From Gemmatimonadaceae bacterium (lineage in GTDB: Bacteria; Gemmatimonadota; Gemmatimonadetes; Gemmatimonadales; Gemmatimonadaceae), in contig DASXUN010000015.1 of assembly GCA_036504815.1 (NCBI GenBank), positions 1 to 64,000 of the forward strand: 64,000 bases of DNA, read 5' to 3'. The first letter of the stretch is position 1; the number at the start of each line of letters is the position of its first letter. A program made the translations under genes and the position numbers. The notes under the pieces were generated by a model, which did no database searches, was not told where the DNA came from, and worked only from the letters and a program-made list of their open reading frames with translations. Below, piece by piece: positions 1-62,341 of this stretch.

Positions 1-95
1 AACAGAGAAACAACAGAGCGCGCCGGGGCCGGATGCCGTGGCGCGCTCTTTCTGTTGTCTCTCTGTTGTCTTTCTGTTGTCTCTCTGTTGTCTCT

Positions 96-97
<2 letters not shown>
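1..97 (-). terminator. Repeat-flanked GC hairpin at the 3' end of gcvP
   Basis: On the minus strand, immediately after the gcvP stop, lie four 11-nt units of the ACAACAGARAG type. They are followed by a 10-bp GC stem (15-24 pairs with 40-49, 15-nt loop) and then the complementary T-rich units (CTCTGTTGTTTCTCTGTT). The whole forms a long interrupted hairpin ending in a U-rich tail, which fits a transcription terminator. The same architecture recurs near 23.3, 24.8 and 56.1 kb. The element may continue beyond the left edge of the window. Confidence 0.6.
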
Positions 98-9300: not shown

Positions 9301-9352
9301 GCATCTGCCATCCGCCATCAGCCATCCGCCATCAACGATCAGCCCTCAGCCT
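9301..9352. repeat. Heptamer-periodic repeat (CCGCCAT type)
   Basis: Tandem 7-nt variants (GCCATCC, GCCATCA) fill the space between the terminator and the stop codon of the POT gene. The same family recurs at 16.96, 21.83, 44.28 and 62.30 kb. Confidence 0.7.
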
Positions 9353-16923: not shown

Positions 16924-16955
16924 ACGGGGCGCCATCCATTCGGAGTGCGCCCCGT
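16924..16955. terminator. Bidirectional GC hairpin between convergent genes
   Basis: A 9-bp stem ACGGGGCGC/GCGCCCCGT with a 14-nt loop lies between the DHS-like gene (plus) and the small membrane gene (minus). There is no strong T run on either side; CCGCCAT-type heptamers follow to about 16992. It is a weak terminator candidate. Confidence 0.45.
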
Positions 16956-17011
16956 CTGCCATCTGCCTTCCGCCATCTGCCATCACCCGCCCAGCGAACT
17001 TGGGCTCGCGT

Positions 17012-20542: not shown

Positions 20543-21793
20543 ATGGCAACGAAGATCTTCATGGAAGCGCTCTCTCCCACCATGGAAGAGGGCCGCCTCG
20601 TCAAGTGGAACATTCCCGAGGGCGCCGCCGTGAAGTCGGGCGATGTCCTCGCCGAAGTCGAGACCGACAAGGCCGTGATGGAGCTCGTGGCGCGCGGCGA
20701 CGGCGTGCTGCGCAAGCAGCTCGTGGCCGAGGGCGTCACGGCGCCCGTCGGATCGCTGGTGGGTGTCATTGCGGGTGCGGACGAGGACATAGCGGCGCTC
20801 GTGGCTGGCGCTGGCGCGGCACCTGCCGCGGTGGCTCCTGCCGCTGCGGTTCCTGCCGCGCCGGCCGCCGCCCCGGCGCCGGCCGCTGTCCTGGCCGCCG
20901 CTCCGGCTCCGGCGGCCCCCTCGGCCGTGGCGGGCGCCGTCAGCACCAAGAGTTCACCGCTCGCGCGGCGTCTCGCGCGCGAGAGCGGCCTCGACGTCGG
21001 CGCCATCCCCGGCTCCGGCCCCGGCGGCCGCGTCATCAAGCGCGACATCGAGGCGGCGATGGCCGGCGGCGCTTCCGCCATCAGCCGTCCGTCATCCGCC
21101 GTCTCCGCCGCCGACTACACCGATCAGCCGCTCACCCAGATCCGCAAGACCATCGCCAGGCGCCTCGGCGAAAGCATCGGCCCGATCCCGACGTTCTACC
21201 TGACCGCCGAGTTCGACCTGACCCGCGTTGTCGAGATGCGCGCGCAGGCCGCCGCGCTCGGCGAGGACTTCAAGGTGTCCGTCAACGACATCCTCCTGAA
21301 GGCCGTCGCCACGGCGCTCGCCGCGCACCCCGAGGTCAATGCGCACTGGCTTGGCGACAAGATTCGCTACTTCAACCGCGTGCACCTCGGCATGGCCGTG
21401 GCCACGGATGACGGACTCATCGTTCCGGTGATCTTCGACGCCGACCGGAAGGGACTGCGCGAGATCTCCGTCGAGTCGCGCGACCTCGCCAAGAGGGCGC
21501 GTGAGCGCAAGCTCACGCCCGAGCAGTACACCGGCTCGACCTTCTCGGTGTCCAACCTCGGGATGATGCAGATCGACCAGTTCACGGCGATCATCAACCC
21601 GCCCGAGTGCGGCATCCTCGCCATCGGCGCCATCGAGGACACGCCCGTGGTGGTGGACGACGCCATCGCGGTGCGCAAGCGCCTGCGCGTGACGATGAGC
21701 TGCGACCACCGCGTGATCGACGGCGCGGTGGGCGCGCGCTTCCTGCAGACGCTGCGGCGGATGCTGGAGAACCCGCTGATGCTGGTCTTCTAG
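20543..21793 (+). CDS. pdhC: Dihydrolipoamide acetyltransferase, E2 of the pyruvate dehydrogenase complex
   Basis: 416 residues. One N-terminal lipoyl domain (lipoyl lysine K43 in VETDKAVMELV) is followed by a long Ala/Pro linker (about 90-130), the peripheral-subunit-binding domain (SSPLARRLARESGLDVGAIPG), a second linker (about 175-195) and the catalytic domain ending in SCDHRVIDG (His389, Asp393). It transfers acetyl to CoA and is the core of the complex. The second linker is encoded partly by a heptamer repeat like those in the flanking intergenic regions (see 21075-21109). The lipoyl lysine is the target of LipA plus LipB or LipM. Confidence 0.96.
   Translation: MATKIFMEALSPTMEEGRLVKWNIPEGAAVKSGDVLAEVETDKAVMELVARGDGVLRKQLVAEGVTAPVGSLVGVIAGADEDIAALVAGAGAAPAAVAPAAAVPAAPAAAPAPAAVLAAAPAPAAPSAVAGAVSTKSSPLARRLARESGLDVGAIPGSGPGGRVIKRDIEAAMAGGASAISRPSSAVSAADYTDQPLTQIRKTIARRLGESIGPIPTFYLTAEFDLTRVVEMRAQAAALGEDFKVSVNDILLKAVATALAAHPEVNAHWLGDKIRYFNRVHLGMAVATDDGLIVPVIFDADRKGLREISVESRDLAKRARERKLTPEQYTGSTFSVSNLGMMQIDQFTAIINPPECGILAIGAIEDTPVVVDDAIAVRKRLRVTMSCDHRVIDGAVGARFLQTLRRMLENPLMLVF
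21075..21109 (+). repeat. Heptamer repeat inside the pdhC coding sequence
   Basis: CCGCCAT, CAGCCGT, CCGTCAT and CCGCCGT units with 7-nt spacing encode the Ser/Ala-rich linker (SAISRPSSAVSA) between the E3-binding and catalytic domains. They match the intergenic CCGCCAT/CCGTC family found immediately before and after this gene. Confidence 0.6.
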
Positions 21794-21906: not shown

Positions 21907-23310
21907 ATGGCAAACTTCGATGTGATTTTCTTGGGCGGCGGCCCGGCGGGCTACGTCGGCGCCATCCGCGCGGCCCAGCTTGGCTTGACCGTCGGTGTCA
22001 TCGAGCGCGAGGGACTCGGCGGCACGTGCGTGCTCTGGGGATGCATCCCGGCCAAGGCGCTGCTCGAGTCGTCGCACATTGCCAACCGGCTCAAGCACGC
22101 GGCCGAATTCGGCGTGAAGGTCGGCGACATCACGCTCGACTATGGCGTGGCGATGAAGCGCTCGCGCGATGTTTCCATCAAGAACTCCAAGGGCGTCGAG
22201 TTCCTCTTCAAGAAGAACAAGGTCACCTGGATCAAGGGCACGGGCGTCATCGGCGCCGGGAAGACGGTCAAGGTCTCGACCGCCGACGGCAAGACGGAGA
22301 CGCACACGGCCGCCAAGGCGCTCATCATCGGCACCGGCTCGCGCGTGAAGGGCCTGCCGCAGGCGGGGCTGGAGCTGAACAAGACGACGGTGATCTCGTC
22401 GGACGAGGCGCTGGTGCTCGAGAAGGCCCCCAAGACGCTCGCCGTCGTCGGCGCCGGCGCCGTGGGCTGCGAATTTGCCGACGTCTTCAATGCGTTCGGC
22501 ACGAAGGTGACCATCCTCGAGGTGATGCCGCGCATCCTGCCGCTCGAGGACGAGGACAGCTCGGCCGAGGTGGCGCGCTCGTTCAAGAAGCGCGGCATCG
22601 ACGTCTACGCCGGCGCGAAGCTTTCGGGCGCGAAGATTGGCAAGGACAGCGTCACCCTCACCGTCGAGGCGGGGGGCCAGAAGCAGGAGCTCACGGTGGA
22701 GAAGGTGCTCGTCGCCGCCGGCCGTGCCGCGAACGTCGAGAACATCGGGCTCAAGGAAGCGGGGGTGCAGCTGACCGACCGCGGCTTCATCAAGGTGAAC
22801 GACAAGCTCGAGACGACGGCCAAGGGGATCTACGCCATCGGTGACGTCGCCGGGCCGCCGATGCTGGCCCACAAGGGCGAACGCGAGGGCGTGATCGTCG
22901 CCGAGATCATTGCGGGGCATCATCACCACCCCATCAACTACGGCAACATCCCCAACTGCACGTACTGCAGTCCCGAAGTGGCGTCCATCGGCTTCACCGA
23001 GGCGCAGTGCAAGGAGAAGAAGCTCGACTACAAGGTCGGCAAGTTCCCCTTCAGCGCGAACGGCCGCGCCCGCACGGCGGGCGAGACCGAGGGCTTCGTG
23101 AAGATCATCCGCGACGCCAAGTACGGCGAGATCCTCGGCGCGCACCTCGTGGGCCCGCACGTGACGGAGATGATTCACGAACTGCTGGTCGCCCGTGAGA
23201 ACGAGTTCACCGTGGAAGAGGTGGATCTCGCCATCCACGCGCACCCGACGCTCAGCGAGGCGGTCGCGGAGGCGGTGTTGGATTCGATGGGGAAGATGAT
23301 ACACGCGTAA
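21907..23310 (+). CDS. lpdA: Dihydrolipoyl dehydrogenase (E3)
   Basis: 467 residues. This FAD enzyme reoxidises dihydrolipoyl groups of PDH E2 and also serves GcvH. The FAD-binding GGGPAGYVGAIRAAQ is followed by the redox disulfide Cys41/Cys46 (GGTCVLWGCIPAK, where most enzymes read CLNVGC). The NAD-binding region is VVGAGAVGCEFADVF, and the active-site His lies in HAHPTLSEA near the C-terminus. It is the last gene of the lipA-pdh group and ends at a clear terminator. Confidence 0.97.
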   Translation: MANFDVIFLGGGPAGYVGAIRAAQLGLTVGVIEREGLGGTCVLWGCIPAKALLESSHIANRLKHAAEFGVKVGDITLDYGVAMKRSRDVSIKNSKGVEFLFKKNKVTWIKGTGVIGAGKTVKVSTADGKTETHTAAKALIIGTGSRVKGLPQAGLELNKTTVISSDEALVLEKAPKTLAVVGAGAVGCEFADVFNAFGTKVTILEVMPRILPLEDEDSSAEVARSFKKRGIDVYAGAKLSGAKIGKDSVTLTVEAGGQKQELTVEKVLVAAGRAANVENIGLKEAGVQLTDRGFIKVNDKLETTAKGIYAIGDVAGPPMLAHKGEREGVIVAEIIAGHHHHPINYGNIPNCTYCSPEVASIGFTEAQCKEKKLDYKVGKFPFSANGRARTAGETEGFVKIIRDAKYGEILGAHLVGPHVTEMIHELLVARENEFTVEEVDLAIHAHPTLSEAVAEAVLDSMGKMIHA

Positions 23311-23317
23311 GGCGTGA

Positions 23318-23412
23318 GAGAGACAACAGAGAAACAACAGAGAAACAACAGAGAAACAACAGAGAGACAACAGAGAGGCGCCTGCGACTTGCGGGCGCCT
23401 CTCCTTTTTCCT
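23318..23412 (+). terminator. Terminator of the pdh operon with an ACAACAGAGAR repeat array
   Basis: Five 11-nt units (ACAACAGAGAA or ACAACAGAGAG) follow the lpdA stop. Next comes a 10-bp stem GAGAGGCGCC/GGCGCCTCTC (23373-23382 with 23394-23403, 11-nt loop) and then CTTTTTCC and CTCTGTTT. The hairpin plus T run is a standard intrinsic terminator; the array is an extra upstream arm. Confidence 0.8.
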
Positions 23413-24834: not shown

Positions 24835-24904
24835 AGGGCGGCGCACCATCGCGCCGCCCTCTGTTGTCTCTCTGTTGTTTGTCTGTTGTCTCTCTGTTGT
24901 TTCT
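24835..24904 (-). terminator. Repeat-flanked GC hairpin between convergent genes
   Basis: Minus-strand reading from the stop of the 24905 gene: four ACAACAGA-type units, then a perfect 10-bp stem AGGGCGGCGC/GCGCCGCCCT (24835-24844 with 24851-24860, 6-nt loop). It has the same architecture as the gcvP and lpdA ends but lacks a long T run after the stem. Confidence 0.6.
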
Positions 24905-25657
24905 CTATTTCTGAGACCTGAACAGCTTCTCATCAACCGGCTCATCGCACCGCCATTCATGGTACTCCTCGAGCTGCCGGCGCTGGCCGCCGCGGAACAT
25001 CTCGACCTTCGTCGCCAGCCACCCCTTGCCGCACGGCTCGAGCGCGCCGAGGTGAATGTCGAGCGGCGGGCGCCCAGCGCCGCCGGCCAGGACGATGCGC
25101 ACGACCATCAGGTGCTGATCCTCCACCCAGAACTGCGGCGAGGTGGTGTCCGCGGGACTGGAGGCACCCACAATCCAGACGGCCTGCCCCTTCCACGCCG
25201 CCGTGCGAAGCTTCGCCAGGTCGAAGCCGAGGGGCGCGAGCTGCCGGATCGTCTCGCCGACCGGCTGCACGTACGCACCCTCGATGAGTGCGAGGAACGG
25301 ATTCCCGCTCGCACGCACCGCCGCGAGCGTGTCGGCGCGAATGACCCACGTCGAATCCCACGTCGAGATGGAGGCATTCCCGGCAGCGAGCGGCGCCACC
25401 GCGATGCGCAGCTGCGTGCCGCGTTCTGGCGTGTAGCGGAGCGTCTCATGCCACGTCTGCACCGTGTCGCGCCCGTCGCTCTGGCGTATGGTCGTCGTCT
25501 GGCGGAAGGCCAGCGTCTTGTACCAGTCGCCGGCGTGACGGGAGCGCATGCGGGCGATGACATCCATGCCCGACTGGGGTGGCGCACCCTGCGCGAGCAG
25601 CGCAGGGGCGAAGGCAACGGTGGCGCAGGCGGCGAAGACGCGTATCGTTCGTTTCAT
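24905..25657 (-). CDS. Secreted protein of unknown function (250 aa)
   Basis: A clear signal peptide (MKRTIRVFAACATVAFAPALLAQG) is followed by a beta-rich body. Segments such as FRQTTTIRQSDGRDTVQTWHETLRY, AVWIVGA and FWVEDQHLMVVRIVLAGG recall periplasmic LolA/outer-membrane-sorting-like folds, but I cannot assign a family. Two C-terminal cysteines (EPCGKGW, EWRCDEP) could form a disulfide. It is a monocistronic unit ending at the repeat-flanked hairpin. A TATCGT about 30 nt upstream may be its -10 element. Confidence 0.65.
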   Translation of the reverse strand: MKRTIRVFAACATVAFAPALLAQGAPPQSGMDVIARMRSRHAGDWYKTLAFRQTTTIRQSDGRDTVQTWHETLRYTPERGTQLRIAVAPLAAGNASISTWDSTWVIRADTLAAVRASGNPFLALIEGAYVQPVGETIRQLAPLGFDLAKLRTAAWKGQAVWIVGASSPADTTSPQFWVEDQHLMVVRIVLAGGAGRPPLDIHLGALEPCGKGWLATKVEMFRGGQRRQLEEYHEWRCDEPVDEKLFRSQK

Positions 25658-40698: not shown

Positions 40699-42270
40699 GT
40701 GCCCCGCTTCTTCCTGACCACCGCCATCGACTACGCCAACGGCGAGCCCCACCTGGGGCATGCCCTGGAAAAGGTCGGCGCCGATGCCATCGCGCGCTTT
40801 CACCGGCAGCTCGGCTATGACGTCCACTTCCTCATCGGCATGGACGAGCATGGCCAGAAGGTCGCGCAGACCGCCGAGAAGCAGGGCGTGCCGCCGCAGC
40901 AGTTCGTGGACGACATTGCCGCCCTGTTCCAGGCGATGTGGGCGCAGCTGGGGGTGCGGTACGATCAGTTCATTCGCACCACGTCGCCCGCGCACAAGGC
41001 CGGCGTCACGAAACTGATCGAGCAGATCTTCGCCGCCGACGCGTCGCTCCCCGCGGACAGGCGCAACTTCTACGAGCGGTCCTATACCGGGCTGTACTGC
41101 GTCGGCTGCGAGAGCTTCAAGCAGCCAGCGGACATCGTGGACGGCAAGTGCGCCACGCATCCCACGCGCACGCTGGAGGAAGTCACCGAGCACAACTGGT
41201 TCTTCCGGCTCTCCGCGTACACCGGACGCCTGCAGCAGCTGTTCGCGGAGAATCCGTCGTTTCTCGAGCCGGAAAGCCGCCGCAATGAAATCCTGCAGCT
41301 GCTCGAGCAGGGGCTCGACGACATATCGGCCAGCCGTTCTCGCTTCGACTGGGGCGTTCCGTTCCCCCGTCCGCTCTCCAACGGCGACGTGCAAACCACG
41401 TATGTCTGGTTCGACGCGCTCCCCAACTACTGGACGGCGCGCTTCTTCCCGGGCTTCGAGCAGAAGGCGGCGTGGCCGGCCCACCTGCACGTGATCGGCA
41501 AGGACATCACGCGGTTCCACACCGTCATCTGGCCGGCCATGCTGATGGCGGCGGGCGAGACACTGCCCGCGCAGGTCTGGGCGCACGGGTTCATCTCGCT
41601 CGGCGGCGAGCGTTTCTCCAAGTCGGCCGGCGTCAAGCTCACGCTGGGCGAGGCCATCGACCGGTACGGCGTGGATGCGTTCCGGTATTACCTGCTGCGC
41701 GATGTCCCGTATGACGGCGACGGCTCGTTCTCGTGGGAGCGCTTCGAGGAGGTCTACAACAGCGACCTGGCGAACACGCTCGGCAACCTCGGCAGCCGCT
41801 CGATCGCGATGGTCGAGAAGTACCGCGGCGGGGTCGTCCCGTCGGTCGCGCCGGATGCGGAGCTGTTCGCGGCGCACGACGCGTCGCTCGCGCAGGCGCG
41901 CGCCGCCGTCGACGGCGCCCGTCGCCATCGCCCAAACGAGGTGATCGGCGCGCTGATGGACGCCGCGCGCCGCACCAACGAGTACATCCAGCGCACGCAG
42001 CCGTGGGCGCTCGCCAAGGATCCCGCGAATGCAGCGCCGCTTGATGTGGTGCTCACCACGCTCATTGCCTCGCTCGCGCAGTGCGCGGCGTGGCTCGCCC
42101 CCGTGATGCCGCAGAAGATGCAGGCCCTCTGGGAGCAGCTCGGCGGCACCGGTGACGTCACGCAGGTGCGCCTCGACCAGCCCATCGTGGTCAACGGCTG
42201 GCAGGTGAAGAAGGGAGGACCGCTCTTTCCGAAACCGTTGGTTTCGGAGGGTACCACAGAAACAGAATAG
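40699..42270 (+). CDS. metG: Methionyl-tRNA synthetase
   Basis: 523 residues. Class I motifs: the HIGH equivalent PHLGHA (about 17-22) and the KMSKS equivalent RFSKS (FSKS at 306-309). The knuckle segment has C-x2-C...C-x2-H ligands (CVGC and CATH), as in Thermus-type enzymes. It lacks the C-terminal Trbp111-like tRNA-binding domain, so it is the short form. The GTG start is 3 nt after the upstream stop. The gene ends at a long repeat structure. Confidence 0.96.
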   Translation: MPRFFLTTAIDYANGEPHLGHALEKVGADAIARFHRQLGYDVHFLIGMDEHGQKVAQTAEKQGVPPQQFVDDIAALFQAMWAQLGVRYDQFIRTTSPAHKAGVTKLIEQIFAADASLPADRRNFYERSYTGLYCVGCESFKQPADIVDGKCATHPTRTLEEVTEHNWFFRLSAYTGRLQQLFAENPSFLEPESRRNEILQLLEQGLDDISASRSRFDWGVPFPRPLSNGDVQTTYVWFDALPNYWTARFFPGFEQKAAWPAHLHVIGKDITRFHTVIWPAMLMAAGETLPAQVWAHGFISLGGERFSKSAGVKLTLGEAIDRYGVDAFRYYLLRDVPYDGDGSFSWERFEEVYNSDLANTLGNLGSRSIAMVEKYRGGVVPSVAPDAELFAAHDASLAQARAAVDGARRHRPNEVIGALMDAARRTNEYIQRTQPWALAKDPANAAPLDVVLTTLIASLAQCAAWLAPVMPQKMQALWEQLGGTGDVTQVRLDQPIVVNGWQVKKGGPLFPKPLVSEGTTETE

Positions 42271-42274
42271 GACG

Positions 42275-42400
42275 GAGTACGACAGAGTACCACGGAGGAC
42301 CACAGAGGGGCGCCGATCCATCTCGGCGCCCCGTTGTCGTACTCTGTCGTACTCTGTCGTACTCTGTCGTACTCTGTCGTACTCTGTCGTACTCTGAACT
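42275..42400. repeat. Inverted tandem repeats (GTACTCTGTC, 10-nt unit) around a GC hairpin
   Basis: The left arm has purine-rich units (GGAGTACGACAGAGTACCAC, then GGAGGACCACAGAG). The centre is a perfect 10-bp stem GGGGCGCCGA/TCGGCGCCCC (42307-42316 with 42323-42332). The right arm has six exact or near-exact copies of TGTCGTACTC ending one base before the stop codon of the minus-strand M23 gene. The arms can pair with each other. It separates two convergent genes. Confidence 0.8.
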
Positions 42401-44164: not shown

Positions 44165-44279
44165 CTGTCTCTCACTCCGTAAAGGAAAAGGGGAACTGCC
44201 TGGCAGCGCTCGGCTCGCTAGCCGCTCCGCCACCATATCTCACTCGGCGCACCGCGCCGTCAAATCACCCGGTCAACAT

Positions 44280-44352
44280 CCGCTATCCGCCATCCGCCAT
44301 CCGCGATCAGCCATCCGCCATCCGCCATCAGCCATCCGCCGTCAGCCATCCG
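44280..44352. repeat. Long CCGCCAT-type heptamer array reaching into a gene's 3' end
   Basis: About ten 7-nt units (CCGCCAT, CCGCGAT, CAGCCAT, CCGCCGT). The rightmost units contain the stop codon and final codons (QADG) of the minus-strand nucleotidyltransferase gene. The array lies between that gene and lemA. Confidence 0.75.
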
Positions 44353-45064
44353 CCTGAACACCATCGAGCCAGGCGGCCAGTCTCTCCAGCCCATCATGGC
44401 ATCCGCGCACCACGCCCGCCGCCGCCTTGTCGCCGATCTTCGCCATGCCGCGCCGGTGCGCGATGAGCGCCAGGAACGGCGCCGCATCGAAGCCGGCCTT
44501 CGCCGCCACGTCTCGCGCCACCTGCTCGGAATCGAGGTATGGCGCCGACAGCCCGTCCGTGAGCCGCAGCGCCGCCCGGAAGATCGCGAAGATGGTGCCG
44601 TGCGCCGCCTCCAGCAGCTGGCGCTGCGCCGCACCTTCCCCATGCCGCGCCTGCATCTCGCGCCGCAACTGGATCAGCTTCCCCATCACTTCCCGCTCGA
44701 GCTGCAGCCGCAGGTCGTGACGTGACACCGACAGTCCCTCGGTGTGCAGCGCGCCGTGCAGCACGCGATGCGCCGAGAGGATATCGGCATACTCGATGGC
44801 GAAGACGTCGGCGCTTGTGCGCCACTCCGCGGACGTCAGCGTGAGCGGGGCCGGGTGGCCAGCCTGCATCCACGCGCGCGTGGCGGCGCCCGCGGCCGGC
44901 AGCGCCTGGTCGGCGAGCGTCCGCACGATCACCAGCACGTCAATGGTCCCCGTCGGCGGGCCGGAGTGCCGGGCCGCCGAGCCGTAGAGCACCACTGCTT
45001 CGAGCGCGTCGCCATGCGCCGCGCGCAGCTGCTCCACCAGGTTGTCCAGCGTCATCTTGGCCAT
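44342..45064 (-). CDS. Nucleotidyltransferase-fold protein, possibly inactive
   Basis: 240 residues. The N-terminal Pol-beta-type NTase segment AVVLYGSAARHSGPPTGTIDVLVIV has the GS motif, but the paired acidic motif reads TID instead of D-x-D, so one metal-binding Asp seems missing. The remainder is alpha-helical (RLQLEREVMGKLIQLRREMQARHG), as in proteins with a helical substrate domain. The start ATG has GGGAG 8 bases upstream and lies one base from the TPM gene stop. The last residues come from a heptamer repeat. The function is unknown; it could be an antitoxin-like or regulatory NTase. Confidence 0.7.
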   Translation of the reverse strand: MAKMTLDNLVEQLRAAHGDALEAVVLYGSAARHSGPPTGTIDVLVIVRTLADQALPAAGAATRAWMQAGHPAPLTLTSAEWRTSADVFAIEYADILSAHRVLHGALHTEGLSVSRHDLRLQLEREVMGKLIQLRREMQARHGEGAAQRQLLEAAHGTIFAIFRAALRLTDGLSAPYLDSEQVARDVAAKAGFDAAPFLALIAHRRGMAKIGDKAAAGVVRGCHDGLERLAAWLDGVQADG

Positions 45065-54788: not shown

Positions 54789-56072
54789 GTGAACCCCGCG
54801 CTGCGCGCCGCCTACGCCACTGCGGGCACGCTCGCGGAGTGGGCGTCGTCGGCCGCTCGCCACCACGGCGGCGGCAAGACGATGGCGTCGCTGGCGGGAC
54901 GGCGCGGCGTGATCGAACGATTCGCCCGGTGGGGCGCCGCGCATCGCGACCCGGTCCGTCCGCTGGTCTGGTTCCACGCCCCGTCGGTCGGCGAAGGGCT
55001 GCAGGCGCGCCCGGTCATCGAGTTGCTGCGCGCGCATCGGCCGGACGTGCAGGTGGTCTACACGCACTTCTCGAGCAGCGCAGTGAGCTTTGCCGCGCGC
55101 GTTGGCGCCGATTACGCCGACTACCTCCCGTTCGACACCGCGCGCGCGGCGCGCGCCCTCGTGCACGCGCTTCGCCCCACCGCGCTGGTGTTCAGCAAGC
55201 TCGATGTCTGGCCGGTGCTCGTGGAGGAAGCGGCCCGGGCCGGGGTGCGCGTGGCGATGATCGCCGCCACGATGGCCGAAGGATCGGGCCGGCGCGGCAT
55301 GATGGCGCGCGCCTTCCTGCGCGATGCGTACGCCGCCATCGGCGCCATCGGCGCGATCGACGCCGACGATGCCGAGCGCCTGGTGGCGCTGGGCGTGAAC
55401 CAGGCGCACGTGCGCGTGACGGGTGACACCCGGTACGATCAGGTCTGGGCGCGCGCCGCGGGCGTGGACCGGGACTCCGGACTGCTCGCACCGCTCGCGA
55501 GCGCTCGGCCCACGCTCGTCGCCGGCTCCACCTGGCCCGCCGATGAGACGGTGCTCGCTGAGGCCTGGCGCGGCCTCCGCGCCCGCGTGCCGACCGCGCG
55601 GCTCATCATCGCGCCGCACGAACCCACGCCGACGCATGTGAACGCGATTCAGGGGTGGGCAGCGCGGGAAAGTTTGCCGGCCGCGCGACTCGGCGCGCAC
55701 GATGTCGGCAGCGCCGAGGTGGTGATCGTCGATCGCGTCGGCGTCCTGGGCGACCTGTACGCGCTGGCGGACGTGGCGTACGTCGGCGGTGGCTTCCATG
55801 CAGCGGGGCTGCACTCGGTGATCGAGCCTGCGGCCTTCGGCGCACCCGTCCTCTTTGGCCCGCGTTGCGTCGGCAGCCGCGACGCCGGCTTGCTGATGGC
55901 GGCGCGGGGCGGACGCGCTGTGCCCGACGCGCGTGCGCTCCAGTCGTCGCTCATCGAGTGGTTCAGCAACGCCGCCGCTCGCTCCGCGGCGGGTCAGCGG
56001 GCGCGCGCGCTCGTGCAGGGTGGAACGGGAGCGGCGGAGAGATCCTATGAGATGGTCGTGGAGATGCTCTAG
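54789..56072 (+). CDS. waaA: 3-deoxy-D-manno-octulosonic acid (Kdo) transferase
   Basis: 427 residues. It adds Kdo to lipid A precursors at the inner membrane. The GT-B motifs are present: HAPSVGEGLQARPVIELL with the catalytic Glu, VTGDTRYDQVW, AGSTWPADETVL, then IIAPHEPTP and YVGGGFHAAGLHSVIEPAAFGAPVLFGP. The usual 'VE-TELWPN' segment reads VFSKLDVWPVLVEEA, so the first Glu is replaced. The N-terminus is short of a strong membrane helix. The start is GTG. Its presence shows an LPS-type outer membrane. Confidence 0.92.
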   Translation: MNPALRAAYATAGTLAEWASSAARHHGGGKTMASLAGRRGVIERFARWGAAHRDPVRPLVWFHAPSVGEGLQARPVIELLRAHRPDVQVVYTHFSSSAVSFAARVGADYADYLPFDTARAARALVHALRPTALVFSKLDVWPVLVEEAARAGVRVAMIAATMAEGSGRRGMMARAFLRDAYAAIGAIGAIDADDAERLVALGVNQAHVRVTGDTRYDQVWARAAGVDRDSGLLAPLASARPTLVAGSTWPADETVLAEAWRGLRARVPTARLIIAPHEPTPTHVNAIQGWAARESLPAARLGAHDVGSAEVVIVDRVGVLGDLYALADVAYVGGGFHAAGLHSVIEPAAFGAPVLFGPRCVGSRDAGLLMAARGGRAVPDARALQSSLIEWFSNAAARSAAGQRARALVQGGTGAAERSYEMVVEML

Positions 56073-56150
56073 AAAGACAACAGAGAAACAACAGAGAGAC
56101 AACAGAGAAACAACAGAGGCCGGGTGAGCATCGCTCCCCGGCCTCTCGCT
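56073..56150 (+). terminator. Repeat-flanked terminator of waaA
   Basis: Directly after the waaA stop are four ACAACAGAGAR units (11-nt period), then a 10-bp stem AGAGGCCGGG/CCCGGCCTCT (56115-56124 with 56137-56146, 12-nt loop) and CGCTCTTG. It has the same plan as the lpdA terminator but with a gene-specific stem. Confidence 0.7.
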
Positions 56151-62297: not shown

Positions 62298-62341
62298 GGA
62301 TCAGATGGTTGATGGCAGATGGCGGATGGCAGATGAACGGG
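62298..62341. repeat. Heptamer repeat between atpA and atpG
   Basis: Units GATGGCA, GATGGCG and GATGGCA (complement of the TGCCATC/CGCCATC type) fill the whole 47-nt gap between the atpA stop and the atpG start. They occupy the place where the SD would be. Confidence 0.75.

Follow-up and report, generated by a model that had tools for sequence, protein, structure and literature searches.

The end of a bacterial transcript is usually described in one of two ways, a hairpin followed by a U tract or a Rho site of diffuse form. The STRR sequences of cyanobacteria are mainly heptamers, arranged in tandem, interspersed, restricted to a lineage and mostly intergenic. The MIRU of mycobacteria are built from units of approximately 50-100 bp that carry small ORFs. 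The DUS and USS are short lineage-specific motifs with dialects, which occur as inverted pairs at terminators (PMC2397512, PMC3630211), and the DUS pairs are known terminators (PMC2397512).

The stretch of DNA analyzed here, called the window throughout, has 64,000 nucleotides and belongs to genome G000. The original prediction for this window described one plan at four gene ends (gcvP, lpdA, waaA and the gene at 24905), in which several ACAACAGAGAR units stand directly after the stop codon and are followed by a GC stem and by T-rich complementary units, and it knew of no named element with such a plan. Indeed, none was found in Rfam or in the papers searched: the Rfam covariance models gave no match in the window, the letters of the unit appeared in no relevant context among the 20 listed of 73 literature matches, and no paper was found that joins Gemmatimonadota with such repeats. 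It is clear that the arrays represent a real genus-specific repeat family that is anchored at the 3' ends of genes.

Array sites in the window and along the genome

The arrays and stems of the window, including those of a related 10-nt unit, are located as follows.

23317..23377, plus strand: 11-nt array of five units plus CAGAG, 3' of the lpdA stop codon (23308-23310)
23373..23403, plus strand: GC stem-loop of the lpdA terminator, then CTTTTTCC; the stem is also conserved in array-free species
47..97, minus strand: 11-nt array of approximately four units, after the gcvP stop codon (CTA, 96-98 on the plus strand)
1..50, no strand assigned: stem and fragment of an opposite array at the contig end, belonging to a 97-bp copy; linkage to gcvP uncertain
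24859..24906, minus strand: 11-nt array after the stop codon of a 250-aa ORF (24905-25657, minus strand)
24835..24860, minus strand: GC stem-loop beyond the array of the 24905 gene
56071..56118, plus strand: 11-nt array of four units after the waaA-like gene (stop codon TAG, 56070-56072)
56115..56146, plus strand: GC stem-loop beyond the waaA array, with a weak U tract
42270..42308, plus strand: degenerate 10-nt array of the ACGACAGAGT type, left of a stem
42307..42332, no strand assigned: GC stem GGGGCGCCGA..TCGGCGCCCC, which separates the two 10-nt arrays
42335..42396, minus strand: 10-nt array, six copies of ACGACAGAGT (a sister to the 11-nt unit), in the opposite orientation

The lpdA and gcvP genes were identified by the family models TIGR01350 and TIGR00461, and the waaA-like gene matches PF04413 and KDO transferase models; for the 250-aa product of the 24905 gene no Pfam or NCBIfam match was obtained. 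As predicted, tandem ACAACAGAGAR units stand directly after the stop codon, on the coding strand, at all four sites. The motif has 17 matches in the window versus 0.56 expected, and no shuffle reached 17. The general form of an array is (CAGANARACAA)n followed by CAG, with n = 4 in 126 of 221 arrays, and four units measure approximately 47 nt. The phase is fixed, in that the array usually begins with CAGAGAR or TAGAGAR and finishes with CAG, and there is no T on the sense strand.

The predicted GC stem after the array was recovered at three sites, with fold z-scores of -5.1 (lpdA), -3.9 (waaA) and -3.8 (the 24905 gene), where a stable GC-rich hairpin lies just past the gene as in intrinsic terminators. 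The stem at gcvP is part of the 97-bp copy at the contig end. In the predicted RNA folds the stem is paired and the array mostly unpaired. On the 3' side of the stem, lpdA has CTTTTTCC, and the T/U tract is weak at waaA and at the 24905 gene. T-rich complementary units at all four ends were not borne out: tandem ones (CTCTGTTGTTT) occur only in the gcvP element, while lpdA has one partial unit (CCTCTGTTTG), waaA has CTCTCGCTCTTG and the 24905 gene has CTTCTGGTTGCC.

Other repeats are found in the same window. Between 42270 and 42396, the arrays of the 10-nt unit ACGACAGAGT face each other across their GC stem. Repeats with a heptamer unit (GATGGCR / TGGCAGA) lie at 9302-9351, 16955-16984, 21074-21110, 44277-44354 and 62302-62335, and their purine-rich strand also often follows stop codons. 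A 7-nt repeat family exists in G000 separately from the 11-nt one.

The abundance and placement of the arrays were determined in an unbiased sample of 744 kb chosen regardless of the repeat (C21:1-680000, from another contig of G000, plus the window), with genes called by a simple purpose-written gene caller based on codon usage. This sample holds 28 arrays, 24 in C21 and four in the window, and a mononucleotide shuffle of C21 holds none. The density is approximately 38 arrays per Mb, or roughly 130 in a 3.5-Mb genome, and about one gene end in 20 carries an array. The expectation that arrays follow stop codons more often than by chance holds genome-wide, with 20 of the 28 arrays (16/24 in C21 and 4/4 in the window) starting near the stop of a coding ORF on the same strand, versus 11.6% expected for random intergenic places (p = 2e-13). 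The arrays usually start, on the sense strand, within a few bases of the stop codon or of a tRNA 3' end. Among 23 cases in G000, the stop is TAG in 13, with the array often supplying its AG, and in seven the first three bases of the array are themselves the stop. Two further arrays of C21 are preceded by tRNA-Cys and tRNA-Phe, and elsewhere the gene that precedes an array is one for tRNA-Leu, tRNA-Gly or (in several species) tRNA-Thr. Single units are rare: among the 32 groups counted over 680 kb, seven are singletons, which account for 7 of 103 units. A 'reversed' control of the search was uninformative given that the unit is nearly a mirror repeat.

A minority of the arrays is either antisense and immediately before a start codon or in frame within a protein; two species, for example, have one in the linker that follows the first MazG domain. 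The in-frame arrays of the MazG linker (L104:5062-5105 and L145:6701-6744) encode RETTERQQ-like peptides. In a groundwater member of the genus, ARAGORN called a stop-reading tRNA with a TTA anticodon beside a tRNA-Leu (L076:6219-6307), which is probably a false or odd call.

Among 395 Gemmatimonadota genomes, the 11-nt array is restricted to the genus of the window (0/385 outside it), where it is present in 8 of 10 members in the first scan and in 9 of 11 in the scan of the genus. G201 and G230 have no 11-nt array, and G114 and G395 have three matches each; the matching genomes include MAGs from groundwater and from lake depths, among others. Three genomes, G000, G230 and G301, have many copies of the 10-nt sister unit ACGACAGAGT, whereas it is missing from 137 others in the family. 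Overall, the genus has several unrelated tandem units, of 7, 10, 11, 14 and 16 nt. When every intergenic tandem repeat found by TRF is considered, whatever its unit, it is the purine-rich strand that follows the stop codon in 37 cases and the pyrimidine-rich one in five in G000, with 44 versus 8 in nine other genomes of the genus. In a sample of 647 kb from other genera, repeats were fewer (1 versus 1) and had no strand pattern. The bias survives removal of the 11-nt unit from G000 (17 versus 4), and therefore the rule that a purine-rich repeat follows the stop codon in the sense direction is broader than that unit.

Constraint on the unit and the relation of array to stem

Arrays at the same gene ends are inherited in different species, and their changes are almost wholly at positions 5 and 7 of the unit. 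Comparison between species gave 159 orthologous pairs, and substitutions were counted in the 41 pairs of the same length with at least 85% upstream identity. Changes amount to 46/166 at position 5, 73/166 at position 7 (A/G) and 0 to 8/166 at each other position; the difference between position 5 and the other positions has p = 3e-26, in statistics that ignore phylogeny and in which some species enter twice under different names. The array finder drops units with more than two mismatches, and the variability of position 5 is no artifact of detection because the finder treats this position like the rest. The predicted near-identity of units between sites is imperfect, since positions 5 and 7 vary. 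The constraint on nine of the eleven positions between orthologs indicates selection on the sequence, one of the two causes proposed originally. The other, an active mechanism that copies the units, is possible, and a stem shared exactly within G000 was found only once, at the contig end.

The number of units is less stable than their sequence and differs in 88 of the 159 pairs. In four-unit arrays the value for neighboring units is 0.183 versus 0.200 by position-preserving permutation; neighbors are no more alike than when permuted, and therefore these arrays are not products of recent slippage. Long arrays do contain runs of identical units.

That array, stem and complement form a single element, as had been proposed, is not supported. 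Approximately half of the arrays beside a co-directional gene have no unusual stem, and stems without arrays exist in relatives. A following stem with z < -2 is found for 58% of the convergent and 37% of the co-directional arrays. In the combined set, a facing array is present for 71 of 113 convergent neighbors versus 26 of 81 co-directional ones (p = 4e-5), and therefore the complement is mostly the array of the other gene, so that at convergent ends the partner array provides the T-rich tract.

At the lpdA end, eight aligned species retain the lower GC helix. Two of them, G201 and G114, have unrelated spacers of 52 and 24 nt, respectively, where the array would be; in G222, the array is present with no clear stem. 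Given that the hairpin persists without the array, it appears to be the ancestral terminator and the array an addition, and the terminator is separable from the array and probably older. At the waaA end, the array is present in some species and absent in others. The spacers at array sites are not alignable.

The gcvP site has to be read with caution. Positions 1-97 of the window are an exact copy of C21:473699-473795, the match stops exactly at position 97, and contig C15 begins with position 1 of the window. This may be a k-mer overlap at the contig end, or a real repeat or recent copy that ended the contig, and for this reason the gcvP stem is not safe as evidence. Orthologs of gcvP have arrays but another stem (GGTCCGG..CCGGACC), and comparison with them therefore supports the gcvP array itself and not its stem. 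At this gene end G174 has the unit CAGAGAGAAAG, and G230, a species without the 11-nt family, has a 16-nt unit, AACACAAGAGCGCACG, at the same place (L231). In G376, both arms at gcvP carry a rare unit at a shifted position, which may reflect exchange between the arms. Palindrome correction between arms was rejected at C21:107009, where the unit patterns are not mirror images.

Possible roles of the array and rival explanations

The reading that we favor, with a probability of roughly 0.4, is that this genus-specific family of interspersed short tandem repeats acts as a sense-strand 3' trailer that is recognized by a putative factor at the end of the transcript. The constraint on the unit suggests that a sequence-specific factor could recognize the repeated motif AGANARACAAC-AG, and more likely on the transcript than on the DNA, because the orientation of the array follows the gene. 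At the transcript end, the array would keep gene and terminator hairpin apart by a stretch free of structure and of U, which could favor termination or 3'-end processing. Arrays often run up to a pre-existing terminator stem. In E. coli, the ribosome represses a terminator that lies less than ~27-30 nt from the stop codon (PMC4824070), and for this reason an open spacer of 47 nt is a plausible benefit. Spacing alone leaves the tRNA ends and the constrained bases unexplained, which is why we infer a specific reader. New arrays would probably arise by slippage together with occasional copying between loci. Against the trailer reading stand the arrays without a stem, about half of the co-directional ones, and those that are in frame or antisense before a start codon, as well as the presence of arrays at only about one gene end in 20 and the variation in unit number between orthologs.

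A more specific form of the trailer reading is that the array is a new 3'-end signal, in which a so far undescribed protein of the genus would read four tandem 11-nt units on mRNA and tRNA transcripts, for sequence-specific termination or for processing or protection of the 3' end, and the unit itself would diverge into dialects between species; we hold this to be rather doubtful. Two candidate readers were rejected. Hfq, through an ARN-type site, is encoded in 0 of 11 genomes of the genus, with a positive control, and a second Rho cannot be a genus-specific reader since the paralog is present in all 59 family genomes tested (59/59). The two Rho proteins, one canonical and one second, are at L323:876-2426 (G000:C30:97875-99425) and L324:933-2453; over the core the second has 51% identity to the first, but its RNA-binding domain is diverged and its N terminus is of low complexity.

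A repeated and constrained motif of typically fixed length that stands after coding and tRNA genes alike, in a single genus, would indicate either an additional factor at the transcript end or an unusual family of repeats that gene ends direct in its dispersal. The close relatives free of arrays, and the species with other units at the same gene ends, make this testable by comparison.

A serious rival, in our judgment unlikely, is a neutral repeat without a cellular role, which would arise by slippage and by copying or recombination and survive mainly between stop codon and terminator. It would explain why so many different units occur in one genus, from 7 to 16 nt in length, and it agrees with the runs of identical units in long arrays, with the unit number that varies between orthologs, with the 97-bp element common to two loci and with the in-frame insertions in protein linkers. 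The 11-nt unit can be tolerated in coding sequence because it is free of stop codons in either orientation. The main counterarguments are the constraint, which holds nine of eleven positions between orthologs and lets two drift, and the sharp peak at four units without similarity between neighbors. Nor would a tolerated repeat lead one to expect the purine-strand bias after stop codons, in G000 or in its nine relatives, or arrays in the sense direction after tRNAs.

An improbable alternative moves the function to the opposite strand, where the complement, (UUGUYUCUCUG)n, would be a rut site that loads Rho and halts antisense transcripts entering the 3' end of the gene, so that the array guards its own gene. 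This would account for the position at the stop codon, for the tRNA ends and for the arrays without a stem, and unrelated units have the same strand polarity. The complement is rich in U and C and unstructured, it has 2.5 YC dinucleotides per 11 nt versus 0 on the sense strand, and the genome has genes for Rho and for a second Rho-like protein. RhoTermPredict defines a rut site by C>G and by a C spacing of 11-13 nt (PMC6407284), and the recurrence of C at approximately 11 nt falls within that range. Nonetheless, G is about as frequent as C in the complement (C/G of 1 to 1.5), a four-unit array, with its 47 nt, does not fill the 78-nt rut window, and the near-invariant bases, including an invariant antisense G, are not needed by a rut site. 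The family genomes that all carry the second Rho mostly lack arrays, and the enrichment at convergent ends is slight in the unbiased sample (9/128 versus 6/165 co-directional).

About as improbable is a mobile cassette, with a recombinase or retroelement that prefers 3' ends and inserts a four-unit array at stop codons and tRNA ends. The fixed start (CAGAGAR), end (CAG) and orientation, the modal four units and the one exact 97-bp copy are what such insertion would give, as is the presence or absence of an array at the same gene end between species, as seen at waaA. On the other hand, stems are almost never common to loci of one genome, many arrays are inherited at orthologous places, and the REP-associated Y1 transposase is absent from G000.

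A DNA uptake or self-recognition sequence, as in Neisseria and Pasteurellaceae, is very improbable, since in spite of a 10-12-nt core with species variants (ACAACAGAGAR, ACGACAGAGT and CAGAGAGAAAG), the restriction to a single genus and the inverted pairs around stems, singletons make up only 7/32 groups and the tandem fours are unlike DUS, the units are much sparser than one per 1.2-1.5 kb, and the orientation follows the genes.

Comparison with known systems

Of the described systems, REP/BIME elements with their RAYT transposases resemble the family of arrays in being interspersed after genes and associated with stem-loops, but here there is no palindromic core. An element of the REP type driven by RAYT was rejected, given that the Y1 transposase has 0 matches in G000 and is found in 2 of 11 genomes of the genus. 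With DUS/USS, the arrays share a short lineage-specific motif that has dialects and forms inverted pairs at terminators; they differ in being tandem, rarer and oriented with the gene, and not hundreds to thousands of single motifs. As in MIRU, the tandem repeats have an orientation and overlap the stop codon of the preceding gene, while the unit here has 11 nt and no T, in place of ~50-100 bp with a small ORF.

Intrinsic terminators, including the bidirectional ones of convergent genes, share with these sites the GC stem-loop past the gene, with a stem found across species. Beyond the stem, a T-rich stretch is seen at lpdA and at convergent ends and is weak at waaA and at the 24905 gene. Ordinary terminators have no array, whereas at these sites it is the tandem array 5' of the stem that is conserved. 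The STRR sequences share the short tandem units at many intergenic places, the restriction to a lineage and the several unit families per genome. The units here have 10-11 nt instead of seven, with a modal number of four copies, and the arrays are set apart from the STRR by lying in the sense direction behind stop codons and tRNA ends and by the constrained positions of their unit.
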